A DNA stretch of 64,000 nucleotides, taken from Falsiroseomonas frigidaquae. GTDB lineage: Bacteria > Pseudomonadota > Alphaproteobacteria > Acetobacterales > Acetobacteraceae. This document shows positions 18,171 to 21,783 of the stretch, one piece after another. Within the stretch, counting starts at the first letter, position 1. Each line of letters opens with the position of its first letter. A program made the translations under genes and the position numbers. Where the stretch lies: contig NZ_JAAVTX010000001.1 in assembly GCF_012163145.1 (NCBI RefSeq), forward strand, positions 310,001 through 374,000. The letters are read 5' to 3'. Below the pieces are notes generated by a model. The model made no database searches, was not told the DNA's origin, and worked only from the letters and a program-made list of their open reading frames with translations.

Positions 18171-18635
18171 TCAGCCGCCGAGTGCCGCCTTCACCAGCGG
18201 CCCGGCCTTGGCCATGTCCAGGCTGGCGGCGTGCTTGGCGCGCAGCACGGCCATCACCTTGCCCATGTCCTTGATGTTCTGGGCGCCGGATTCGGCCACC
18301 GCATCCCGCACCGCTTCCTGCATCGCGGCCTCATCCATCTGCTGCGGCAGGAAGGATTCGATGATGGCGATCTCCGCCTCCTCCTTCTCCGCCAGCTCCG
18401 GGCGGTTGCCCTGGCGGTACATGGCGGCGCTCTCGGCGCGGGACTTCACCATGCCGCGCAGCATGGAGATGATCTGGTCGTCCGGCACCTTCTCCACGCC
18501 GGAGGGGCGGGCGGCGATGTCAGCGTCCTTCAGCTTGGCGGTGATCATGCGGAGGCCGGAGGTGCGGGCCGCATCCTTGGCCAGCATCGCGGTCTTCAGT
18601 TCAGCGGTAAAACGGGTGCGAAGATCATCGGCCAT
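18171..18635 (-). CDS. GatB/YqeY domain protein
   Basis: This 154-residue helical protein of the YqeY family is related to the C-terminal tRNA-binding domain of GatB. It matches the family throughout: DLRTRFTAELKTAMLAKD, TLRMI-like SGLRMITAKLKDADI, FLPQQMDEAAM, and the end MAKAGPLVKAALGG. The start is ATG 18635. Its function is not settled; a tRNA-related role is usually assumed. It is divergent from carA across a 108-bp region that carries two matching palindromes. Confidence 0.92.
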   Translation of the reverse strand: MADDLRTRFTAELKTAMLAKDAARTSGLRMITAKLKDADIAARPSGVEKVPDDQIISMLRGMVKSRAESAAMYRQGNRPELAEKEEAEIAIIESFLPQQMDEAAMQEAVRDAVAESGAQNIKDMGKVMAVLRAKHAASLDMAKAGPLVKAALGG

Positions 18636-18678: not shown

Positions 18679-18730
18679 GGGAAAAATCTTCCCGGCCGCG
18701 GATTATGCTTGGCTTGGGAAGAAAATTCCC
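18679..18730. promoter_or_regulatory. Paired GGGAA-N5-TTCCC palindromes between yqeY and carA
   Basis: Two perfect inverted repeats share the same arms: GGGAA-AAATC-TTCCC (18679-18693) and GGGAA-GAAAA-TTCCC (18716-18730). Their centres are 37 bp apart, and the second ends 13 bp before the ATG of the HTH-CarA frame. Identical arms with different centres are what a dimeric regulator's operator looks like. The HTH domain fused to CarA is an obvious but unproven candidate binder. Confidence 0.65.
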
Positions 18731-18743
18731 ACATAGCGAGGCC

Positions 18744-20165
18744 ATGCGAACCGTCGAAGAGATCATCGCCCTGATGGGCGGGCCGGAGGCCGCGGCGCAG
18801 CGCCTCGGCATCGGCACCGAGGCCGTGCGGAAATGGCGCCAGTCGCGGGCGGTGCCATCCAAGCACTGGTCCGCCATCCTCGCCGCCACCGGCCTCAGCC
18901 TCACCGACCTGCCGCAAGGCGATAGCACCCCCCGCCCCGCCCCGCATCCGGAGAACCGCCCCGTGAGCCAGACGCAGACTGCCCAGACCCCTCCCCCAGG
19001 CGCCACTGCCGCCCTGGTGCTGGCCGATGGCAGCGTCTTCTGGGGCCGCGGCTTTGGCGCCCAGACCACCACCGTGGCGGAGATCTGCTTCAACACCTCG
19101 ATGACCGGCTACCAGGAGGTGCTGACCGATCCCTCCTATGCCGGGCAGACCATCTGCTTCACCTTCCCGCATATCGGCAATGTCGGCGCCAATGCCGAGG
19201 ATATCGAGGCGACCACCCCCGCCGCGCGCGGCCTGATCGTCAAGCAGGACCTGACCGAGCCATCCAACTACCGGGCCACGCGGCACCTGGATGATTGGCT
19301 GAAGTCGCATGGCGTGCCGGGCATCGCCGGCATCGACACACGCGCGCTGACGGTCCGCATCCGCGATGGCGGCGCCCCGAATGGCGTGCTGGCGCATCCG
19401 GCGGACGGGAAGTTCGATATCCCGGCGCTGGTGGCGCAGGCGAAGGCCTGGCCGGGGCTGGAGGGGATGGACCTGGCAAAGGAGGTCTCGACCCGGCAAT
19501 CCTATAGCTGGGACGAGGCCGAATGGGCCTGGGGCCAGGGCTACGCCACCCAGACCGCGCCGAAGTACAAGGTGGTCGCGGTGGATTACGGCGCCAAGCG
19601 CAACATCCTGCGCTGCCTGGCGGCGGCCGGCTGCGCCGTGACGGTGGTGCCGGCGACCGCCACGGCAGAAGACATCCTGGCCCACAAGCCGGATGGCGTC
19701 TTCCTGTCCAATGGCCCGGGCGACCCGGCGGCAACGGGTGCCTATGCGGTGCCGGCCATCCAGGGCGTGCTGGACACCGGCCTGCCCGTCTTCGGCATCT
19801 GCCTAGGCCACCAGCTCCTGGCGCTCGCCCTGGGCGCCAAGACCTACAAGCTCGATCGCGGCCATCGCGGCGCCAACCAGCCGGTGAAGGAACTGGCGAC
19901 GGGCAAGGTGGAGATCACCAGCCAGAACCACGGCTTCGCGGTAGATGATGCGAGCCTGCCGGATGGCGTGACGGTGACGCATCGCAGCCTGTTCGACGGC
20001 AGCAACGAGGGCATCGCCAGCAGCACGAAGCCGGCGTTCTCGGTGCAGTACCACCCGGAGGCGAGCCCGGGGCCGACGGACAGCCATCATCTGTTCCGGC
20101 GCTTCGTGGGGATGATCGAGACCAGCAAGGCGGTTGACCAGTGCAATGGTAGCGCATGCTTGTAA
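18744..20165 (+). CDS. carA: Carbamoyl-phosphate synthase small subunit with N-terminal HTH domain
   Basis: This glutamine amidotransferase subunit feeds ammonia to CarB for arginine and pyrimidine synthesis. From ATG 18744 the protein has 473 residues. Residues 1-55 form a YdaS/Cro-like helix-turn-helix (GGPEAAAQRLGIGTEAVRKW), then a Pro/Gln-rich linker, then normal CarA from about residue 85. The catalytic Cys lies in PVFGICLGHQLLALALG; YHPEASPGP supplies His and Glu. An in-frame GTG at 18963, with GGAG nine bases before it, would give a standard 400-residue CarA. Both forms are possible. The C-terminus ends in an unusual AVDQCNGSACL. Confidence 0.9.
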   Translation: MRTVEEIIALMGGPEAAAQRLGIGTEAVRKWRQSRAVPSKHWSAILAATGLSLTDLPQGDSTPRPAPHPENRPVSQTQTAQTPPPGATAALVLADGSVFWGRGFGAQTTTVAEICFNTSMTGYQEVLTDPSYAGQTICFTFPHIGNVGANAEDIEATTPAARGLIVKQDLTEPSNYRATRHLDDWLKSHGVPGIAGIDTRALTVRIRDGGAPNGVLAHPADGKFDIPALVAQAKAWPGLEGMDLAKEVSTRQSYSWDEAEWAWGQGYATQTAPKYKVVAVDYGAKRNILRCLAAAGCAVTVVPATATAEDILAHKPDGVFLSNGPGDPAATGAYAVPAIQGVLDTGLPVFGICLGHQLLALALGAKTYKLDRGHRGANQPVKELATGKVEITSQNHGFAVDDASLPDGVTVTHRSLFDGSNEGIASSTKPAFSVQYHPEASPGPTDSHHLFRRFVGMIETSKAVDQCNGSACL

Positions 20166-20208: not shown

Positions 20209-20880
20209 ATGGCTACGTATAGAGAAATGGCGGATGCTGCCCGGGATGAGGAACGAATTTTCAAGATAATTTTCTCCCATTTCCACAATCAGCCCGAAGC
20301 ATTCTTCGTTGTGCGCGCAAGAATTCATGAACAACGACTAGCAGAGCTAAACGATAAACCCATTCCCGCCGCCTTTGCATCAACCTTAATTCGAACTATT
20401 GATCGAGTCATAGGAAAACTTCATGATAAGAAACTGGTCACTTTTGATCGTGACGGCGATATCATCTTATCTCCTGAAGGCTTTTTTGCTGGGGAACAAT
20501 TTTTTCTGCTGCCAGATGGTGCGGATACGCTTGAGGCAGATCTTCAAATTCCGGCATCCGATAGAGTCGTTCGTCTTACCGATAATTCGGCTGTTCGGGA
20601 TGAGGCGACCAATGCCCTCGATGAGGTGCTAGAGAAACTGCAGACGCGCCCAAATGATCTACCGCTGAATTCCGAGGAAACATCGGTCTCTAGCGCTGAG
20701 ATCAGTAGCCTCTTAACCCGCATTAAAACGGGCTTTATTAGAATCGGCGAATTACGCCTTTTTATCGGCGCTGGCGGTCTGCTGACTTGGCTACTTCTGA
20801 AACTGGGGCCTCATGCGCTGGCCGTATACGTCGAGCGCGCAATCGTAGCAGTCGAGACACTCGTGAAGTCACTAATGTAA
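20209..20880 (+). CDS. AT-rich gene of unknown function between carA and carB
   Basis: I do not recognise this 223-residue protein. Its base composition (roughly 45-50% GC by eye) and its use of AT-ending codons contrast sharply with the GC-rich neighbours, a sign of recent acquisition. The N-terminal about 100 residues look like a winged-helix arrangement (IFKIIFSHF, LIRTIDRVIGKLHDKKLVTFDRDG). A charged linker follows, and the C-terminal 45 residues hold a hydrophobic helix (LFIGAGGLLTWLLLKLG) suggesting membrane contact. It starts 43 bp after carA and ends four bases before the LysE gene. A defence or regulatory role is possible but unproven. Confidence 0.75.
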   Translation: MATYREMADAARDEERIFKIIFSHFHNQPEAFFVVRARIHEQRLAELNDKPIPAAFASTLIRTIDRVIGKLHDKKLVTFDRDGDIILSPEGFFAGEQFFLLPDGADTLEADLQIPASDRVVRLTDNSAVRDEATNALDEVLEKLQTRPNDLPLNSEETSVSSAEISSLLTRIKTGFIRIGELRLFIGAGGLLTWLLLKLGPHALAVYVERAIVAVETLVKSLM

Positions 20881-20884
20881 TAGC

Positions 20885-21520
20885 ATGCCCTCCCTCGACA
20901 CCCTGCTGATCTTCGCCGCACTCTCGCTCGGCCTCGCTGTCACGCCGGGGCCGAACATGCTGTACCTGATCTCGCGGTCGCTCGCGCAGGGCACCGGGGC
21001 GGGCATGGTTTCGCTGGTCGGCTGCCAGTTCGGCTCCTTCACCATCATGGTCTGCGCCGCCGCCGGCATCACCGCGGCGCTGCTGGCGGTGCCCTATGCC
21101 TGGGACGTGCTGCGGCTCGGCGGGGCGGCGTACCTGCTCTATCTCGCCTGGCAGAGCGTGCGGCCCGGCGGGCAGCCTATCTTTGCCGCCCGGCCGATGC
21201 CGCGCGAACCGCGCGCGCGGCTGTTCTGGGTCGGCTTCGCCACCGCGGCGCTGAACCCGAAGGTGGCGCTGTTCTACATGGCCGTGCTGCCGCCCTTCCT
21301 CGATCCAGCTCGAGGAAATCTGTTCCTGCAGGCCGCGATCCTCGGCTTCGTGCAGATCGCCATCTGCATGGCCTGGGACGCGGTGCTGGTCTGGGGCGCG
21401 GCGGGCGCGGCGCGCTTCCTCGGCGCCAACCCGACCTGGATGGCGGTGCAGCGCTGGGTGCTCGGCGGCGCGCTGGCATTGCTGGCGGTGAAGCTCGCCA
21501 CGGAAAGCCGCGCCACATGA
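20885..21520 (+). CDS. LysE/RhtB-family amino-acid exporter
   Basis: This 211-residue inner-membrane exporter has about six hydrophobic helices. The N-terminal family signature is LGLAVTPGPNMLYLISRSLAQG, and the second signature lies around FWVGFATAALNPKVALFYMAVLPPF. Members export lysine, homoserine, threonine or related solutes. The stop overlaps the next gene's ATG (ATGA), so the two are coupled. It is back in normal high GC immediately after the AT-rich gene. Confidence 0.9.
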   Translation: MPSLDTLLIFAALSLGLAVTPGPNMLYLISRSLAQGTGAGMVSLVGCQFGSFTIMVCAAAGITAALLAVPYAWDVLRLGGAAYLLYLAWQSVRPGGQPIFAARPMPREPRARLFWVGFATAALNPKVALFYMAVLPPFLDPARGNLFLQAAILGFVQIAICMAWDAVLVWGAAGAARFLGANPTWMAVQRWVLGGALALLAVKLATESRAT

Positions 21521-21783
21521 TGCCCTTTGCCTTCGGGCTGTTCGCCCTGGCCTATTCGGGCCTGATCCTTTTCACCGTCGCATCCTCGCTGCGGCGGCTG
21601 ATGTCACCGATGCGGGCGGCGCTCGGCGCCTTCGCGCTGTCCGTGGTGCTGCATGGCGCGACGACATTGATGCTGGGGGAGGAAGCACCCCTCGCCCTGT
21701 ATTTCTGGGGCATCCCCCACCTGCTGATCCTGCCGCTGCTGCTGCTGAGCGCGCGGCGCCAATCCAACTCGACCGGAGCCTGA
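21517..21783 (+). CDS. Small integral membrane protein
   Basis: This 88-residue protein contains three hydrophobic segments (about 3-22, 35-50, 60-77) and almost nothing outside the membrane. I recognise no family. It overlaps the LysE-type exporter by four bases and ends one base before the carB ATG. It may be an accessory to the exporter or simply a conserved small membrane protein. The tight spacing supports it as a real gene. Confidence 0.7.

Follow-up and report, generated by a model that had tools for sequence, protein, structure and literature searches.

A Cro-like helix-turn-helix domain fused to CarA and a conserved pair of candidate operators point to a probable autogenous enzyme-repressor in Acetobacteraceae

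The syntheses of arginine and of pyrimidines both draw on carbamoyl phosphate. In the 64 kb stretch of DNA analysed here, hereafter the window, the gene encoding the small subunit of carbamoyl-phosphate synthase (carA) raises the question of whether an enzyme can carry, within its own reading frame, a domain acting on the promoter of its own gene. Escherichia coli carAB is under several separate regulators and trigger enzymes, as stated in the accessible part of one source (PMC6245113). A preliminary description of the window had proposed that the carA frame runs upstream through a complete YdaS/Cro-like helix-turn-helix (HTH) to ATG 18744, and the ORF translations confirmed that the frame is open as far as this codon. 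Residues 1 to 56 of the resulting protein (18744-18911, forward strand) form the HTH, of which residues 4 to 56 match the NCBIfam family NF046037 (carph-isopro) with 67.8 bits when the 82 N-terminal residues are used as query and 63.7 bits with the whole HTH-CarA protein, above the curated cut-off of 38. A linker follows (18912-19007, forward strand), whose length and sequence differ among relatives, and the CarA match starts at residue 89. CarA proper (18963-20165, forward strand), with its class-I glutamine amidotransferase domain, scores 460 bits against TIGR01368 (cut-off 307.35), covering profile positions 1 to 360 of 361, and its CPSase_sm_chain and GATase matches exceed the Pfam cut-offs. 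The genome of the window holds two matches to NF046037, this one over the cut-off and one elsewhere below it. Between carA and carB (21785), the region 20209-21783 contains an ORF in a local GC dip (47-53% vs 64-72% in the surroundings) and two more ORFs, of which the first looks LysE-like by eye, so that carA and carB are not adjacent in the window.

The YdaS_toxin family (PF15943) gave 23.6 bits with the 82-residue query (gathering score 30), and P22_Cro (PF14549) reached 30.0 bits with this query and 26.3 with the whole protein, both below its gathering score of 30.2. A profile search of the PDB over the HTH returned 5w8y (XPH1, E-value 4e-4), 3bd1 (Cro protein, 6e-4) and 2hin (Repressor protein, 8e-4), followed by 1rzs (Regulatory protein cro) at an E-value of 0.19. 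We take 3bd1 to be the Cro of a Xylella prophage, 2hin and 6on0 that of N15 and 1rzs that of P22. Since Cro-type chains match with E-values below 1e-3 while the Pfam score stays under the gathering score, we call the domain Cro-like and not a member of PF14549. Purifying selection on the HTH, whose absence would have spoken against the preliminary description by its own criterion, is present: over 120 pairs of loci from the same genus, dN/dS is 0.21 for the HTH and 0.10 for codons 1 to 120 of CarA. Hardly any variation is seen in the recognition helix, whose K and W occur in 100% of the loci and whose Q occurs in 92%.

To what extent is this fusion a property of the family? A domain match over the NF046037 cut-off was found in 236 of 249 Acetobacteraceae genomes, at least one of these matches not being at carA; in genome G154 the match is an 82-residue ORF with no carA beside it, and the carA of this genome has no HTH. 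The 13 genomes without a match comprise seven without a carA at threshold, four with stretches that are partial or cut by a contig end, and two with an HTH-less carA. We read 153 family loci including the window, one of which (L113) turned out to encode a different protein and was left out of all family counts. The HTH continues into CarA in frame and without interruption in 150 of the remaining 152, and as only 152 places were read this count does not extend to all 236 domain-positive genomes. The two exceptions, L111 with a stop early in the CarA part and L112, whose frame shifts between the HTH and the CarA part, are sequencing errors or pseudogenes. Named loci of the family belong to Neoroseomonas, Roseomonas, Komagataeibacter, Gluconacetobacter, Acetobacter, Gluconobacter and Acidocella.

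Outside the family, the domain is encountered in other company. In a class-wide sample of 385 genomes, five of them from the family, 64 contain it with an E-value of 1e-10 or better, but none of the 30 loci examined from other alphaproteobacterial families has CarA beside it. The mention in the preliminary description that CarA proteins of other Alphaproteobacteria carry HTH segments thus holds within Acetobacteraceae but not for these 30 loci. Six NF046037-domain proteins from other families were scanned, and the domain occurs there with mitofilin, HemD or an alcohol-dehydrogenase pair rather than with CarA: mitofilin was over the cut-off in three (L060, L010, L071), HemD shares the open frame with a mitofilin match below the cut-off in L063 and is likewise in frame in L069, and the sixth frame carries the alcohol-dehydrogenase pair. 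The association with mitofilin raises the separate question of a DNA-binding, membrane-shaping protein. The library entry of NF046037, of which the HTH of the window is a member, gives a name and no function; "carph" presumably refers to carbamoyl-phosphate synthase.

If the HTH binds DNA, its targets might be sought close to carA, where the preliminary description had reported two palindromes with GGGAA/TTCCC arms, the second lying 13 bases before the ATG. Both are there, operator 1 at 18679-18693 (GGGAAAAATCTTCCC) and operator 2 at 18716-18730 (GGGAAGAAAATTCCC), 37 bp apart and each an exact GGGAA-N5-TTCCC. They are the only two exact occurrences in the 64 kb, with 0.04 expected, and none of 100 shuffles contained two. 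The pair is kept upstream of HTH-carA in relatives, as had been put forward for checking: it scores at least 17 out of 20 in 133 of 152 family loci, vs 1 of 760 dinucleotide-preserving shuffles and none of 152 stretches of equal length taken from within carA. Among relatives the arms are conserved, whereas the central five bases and the DNA separating the two sites vary, a pattern characteristic of sites bound by protein. Of the 133 pairs at threshold, 115 are spaced by 36-40 bp. Most spacings cluster at 37-40 bp, with a minor group at 48-55 bp (10 of 133), roughly one helical turn off, and this second group is possibly a sign of phased cooperative binding. Among the 19 loci scoring below 17, some are mis-anchored (L023) and some have CGGAA-type half-sites; the others may be real losses of the pair.

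The position of operator 2 suggests how a bound protein could act. In the window the promoter reads, in order, a predicted -35 element TTGGCT (18709-18714, forward strand), a 17-bp spacer TGGGAAGAAAATTCCCA (18715-18731) that contains operator 2, a predicted -10 element CATAGC (18732-18737, forward strand), six bases and the ATG of the long form (18744-18746, forward strand), whose A is the predicted first base of the mRNA. The start codon lies within 30 nt of palindrome 2 in 99 of the 149 anchored loci (near loci) and further away in 30 (far loci), the count leaving out three unanchored loci and 20 with a low pair score or a first in-frame start inside or before the palindrome. In 84 of the 99 near loci a TTG starts 7 bases before palindrome 2, at the same offset as in the window and implying a 17-bp spacer, the second position of the -10 element is an A in 94, and the start codon comes 13-14 nt after palindrome 2 in 84. 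In this arrangement operator 2 takes up the promoter spacer, and transcription is expected to start at the A of the ATG. A Shine-Dalgarno (SD) core precedes the long-form start in 6 of the 99 near loci vs 18 of the 30 far loci. The long form is thus probably made from a leaderless mRNA, although not universally, given these far loci. Among the loci with such distant operators are L222, L223, L225, L226, L228 and L239 and others such as L014, L040, L046 and L049. Operator 2 precedes the match by about 73-81 nt in those from Komagataeibacter, Gluconacetobacter, Novacetimonas, Acetobacter and Gluconobacter, the promoter having been rebuilt around the same operators. The geometry at HTH-carA agrees with the lax promoter "ttGnnn / nAtnnn" described for Gluconobacter oxydans in the accessible part of PMC5756330, where leaderless mRNAs account for 62 of 1344 start sites. 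A text search of the main text of this paper returned no mention of carA or carbamoyl.

The preliminary description had further suggested that a plain CarA is made from an internal start. In the window, GTG 18963 (18963-18965, forward strand), candidate start of a short, HTH-less CarA, is preceded at seven bases by the SD-like GGAGAA (18950-18955, forward strand). Such starts are enriched in the linkers, which were counted in 150 loci (L045 and L112 being left out). The linkers contain 107 in-frame ATGs in 3713 codons vs 356 in 44905 codons inside CarA, and an SD motif lies at a fitting distance from 59 of the 107, vs 3 of the 356 inside CarA, 247 of 3554 other linker codons and 0 of 61 out-of-frame linker ATGs. 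When the test is slid by 12-30 nt only 1-7 of up to 107 remain. For GTG the values are 20 of 52 in linkers vs 91 of 2030 inside CarA. An SD-led internal start is present in 77 of the 150 loci, and a second, internal SD-led translation start in many loci is supported by these comparisons. The proposal is supported for part of the family and not as a universal rule: 23 of the 150 linkers have neither ATG nor GTG, so that there the fused protein must work as CarA, and 50 more have an ATG or GTG without the SD motif. As the SD-led start also changes 26 times on the CarA tree, the two-form arrangement appears labile. These absences and changes would suit an alternative reading, namely that the long HTH-CarA is the sole product and that the internal start is left over from the start codon of an ancestral carA. 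We find this rather doubtful, since an unselected relic is expected to have decayed, which is at odds with the SD enrichment over all the controls above and with the SD-led GTG found in the linkers of 15 of 16 loci from the genus of the window.

Any repressor would leave promoter palindromes conserved in this way, and the sites could belong to a different, unlinked transcription factor, with the HTH on CarA being a leftover or having another role. The distribution of the pair makes this quite improbable. Among 80 named carA loci, the pair is at threshold in 19 of the 20 with HTH and in none of the 60 without it (a locus being judged HTH-less when its match begins at residue 56 of the query or beyond). 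It is missing from the HTH-less carA of three family genomes in two genera (L088, L090, L297), and L049 and L165, from the same genus as L088, retain both HTH and pair. On these comparisons the palindrome pair tracks the HTH and not carA. Across the 249 family genomes the exact pair is found in 86, once per genome, and a control pattern in none; among the matches listed, all 55 exact pairs for which an HTH position is also listed adjoin the HTH, as compared by eye (75 places are listed, 20 of which are not comparable). Beyond the family, a search of 372 genomes of the class, five of them family members, returned the exact pair only in the genome of the window. We also considered a wider regulon of single exact palindromes and rejected it: ten genomes hold 50 of these, including about 16 at carA as judged by place, vs 42 for the backwards control, leaving no excess beyond carA. 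The protein and its sites also seem to change together. In 145 loci (five of 150 under the pair threshold were left out), the outer bases of the operators are of the C type in 6 of 7 with S or A at the second position after the conserved W (W+2) vs 1 of 134 with Q, and the named Acidocella locus L224, outside the 145, combines an A at W+2 with CGGAA-type sites. This covariation argues against an unlinked factor only as a hint, since it comes from two independent changes on the tree; a sign test for W+4 was not significant.

A protein bound at these sites might activate carA instead of repressing it, or the sites might serve DNA architecture. Operator 1 indeed precedes the -35 element, and its centre lies about 58 bases ahead of the predicted start, where activators can sit. 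We give this reading the least credence. An occupied site between the -35 and -10 elements, such as operator 2, blocks RNA polymerase. Cro proteins, moreover, are called lytic repressors in the accessible part of PMC4997575. The preliminary description had extended the repression to the divergent neighbour, a gene it named yqeY (18171-18635, reverse strand, translation starting MADDLRTRF), at most a candidate member of the circuit. The operators could control both genes, as yqeY is divergent from carA in 134 of the 148 loci with enough upstream sequence (tblastn) and operator 1 of the window begins 44 nt from the yqeY ATG. We consider this unlikely, and a conserved control of yqeY finds no support: yqeY lies at no fixed distance from operator 1 (mostly about 14-130 nt, with outliers in either direction), vs the 36-40 bp that separate most operator pairs, and the pair is still seen, with scores of 14-20, in 14 loci that have no yqeY hit in the stretch examined.

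Taken together, the results lead us to propose, with good though not full confidence, that HTH-CarA is an autogenous enzyme-repressor, with an operator-bound long form made from a leaderless start, an SD-led short form and negative feedback on carA. Computation shows directly that the domain is fused to CarA, that the operator pair is conserved and specific, that the promoter has the geometry described, that internal starts are enriched and that the HTH is under purifying selection. We add by inference that the protein dimerises, binds DNA and represses, that the long form has a leaderless start and that a short protein is made. Through its Cro-type domain at the N-terminus, the long form would bind both GGGAA-N5-TTCCC operators as a dimer. 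At operator 2 the bound protein would exclude RNA polymerase, because the site takes up the -35/-10 spacer of the carA promoter, and at operator 1, mostly 36-40 bp upstream, a second dimer would bind or cooperate. The mRNA would begin at the A of ATG 18744, hence the predicted leaderless initiation of the long form, and in many species the SD-led internal start (GTG 18963 in the window) would yield plain CarA from the same message. The expected net outcome is that the level of HTH-CarA feeds back negatively on the expression of carA. The claim made about the window, namely that CarA carries a DNA-binding-type domain and that candidate operators for it lie at the promoter of carA, is supported at the level of family-wide sequence comparison, by the 150 fusions and 133 operator pairs among 152 loci. 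Binding might be tuned by CarB occupancy, oligomeric state or metabolites, if by any signal, and the sensing of its own flux that the preliminary description ascribed to CarA is a conjecture. More tentatively, and with real doubts, we suggest that CarA might read the state of the carbamoyl-phosphate synthase complex, in that HTH-CarA being free, bound to CarB or part of a CarAB oligomer would decide whether the two operators are bridged, and the ratio of long to short form would set the strength of the feedback. According to the accessible part of PMC6245113, UMP favours the CarAB heterodimer of E. coli and activators favour the tetramer, which gives an awkward sign for a repression gated by the oligomeric state.

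Enzymes with a fused DNA-binding repressor domain that control genes of the same pathway are known, namely BirA, PutA and NadR. HTH-CarA resembles them in having enzyme and HTH in one reading frame, as in 150 of 152 family loci, and, to judge from sequence comparison, in its conserved candidate operators at its own promoter; it differs in the enzyme concerned, the Cro-type HTH, the candidate short form from an internal start and the probably leaderless long form. The likeness to phage Cro repressors consists of the profile matches over the HTH, but, unlike these, the domain here forms the N-terminal part of a housekeeping enzyme and seems to have a single chromosomal promoter as its target. 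At the P1 promoter of E. coli carAB, the enzyme PepA acts as a trigger enzyme that regulates carAB, as far as the accessible part of PMC6245113 goes. PepA is a separate hexameric enzyme, encoded by an unlinked gene and wrapping about 230 bp of DNA, whereas here CarA itself bears the DNA-binding-type domain. In Vibrio cholerae, the sRNA CarZ mediates autoregulation of carAB from its own transcript, according to the accessible part of PMC7398697; this control is RNA-based and post-transcriptional, unlike that proposed for HTH-CarA. The literature searched, whose coverage leaves most subscription journals outside, yielded no description of HTH-CarA, its autoregulation or its internal start.

Thus, the best reading of HTH-carA is that of an autogenous enzyme-repressor found Acetobacteraceae-wide, with operators embedded in its promoter, a long form that is probably leaderless and a short form that depends on the lineage; most likely, the CarA enzyme turns down its own gene. 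The relatives support the feature far more than a single sequence could, and the predictions for operators, promoter and start sites are exact to the single base. If true, this would be a clean case of autogenous repression at the level of the enzyme, and one mRNA would combine leaderless and SD-led initiation for two functions. Should the reading of the complex state also be true, one gene would be enzyme, sensor and repressor, with the two modes of translation initiation as a tuning knob. In this family of industrially and ecologically important bacteria, a phage-type repressor domain seems to have been joined directly to the enzyme.
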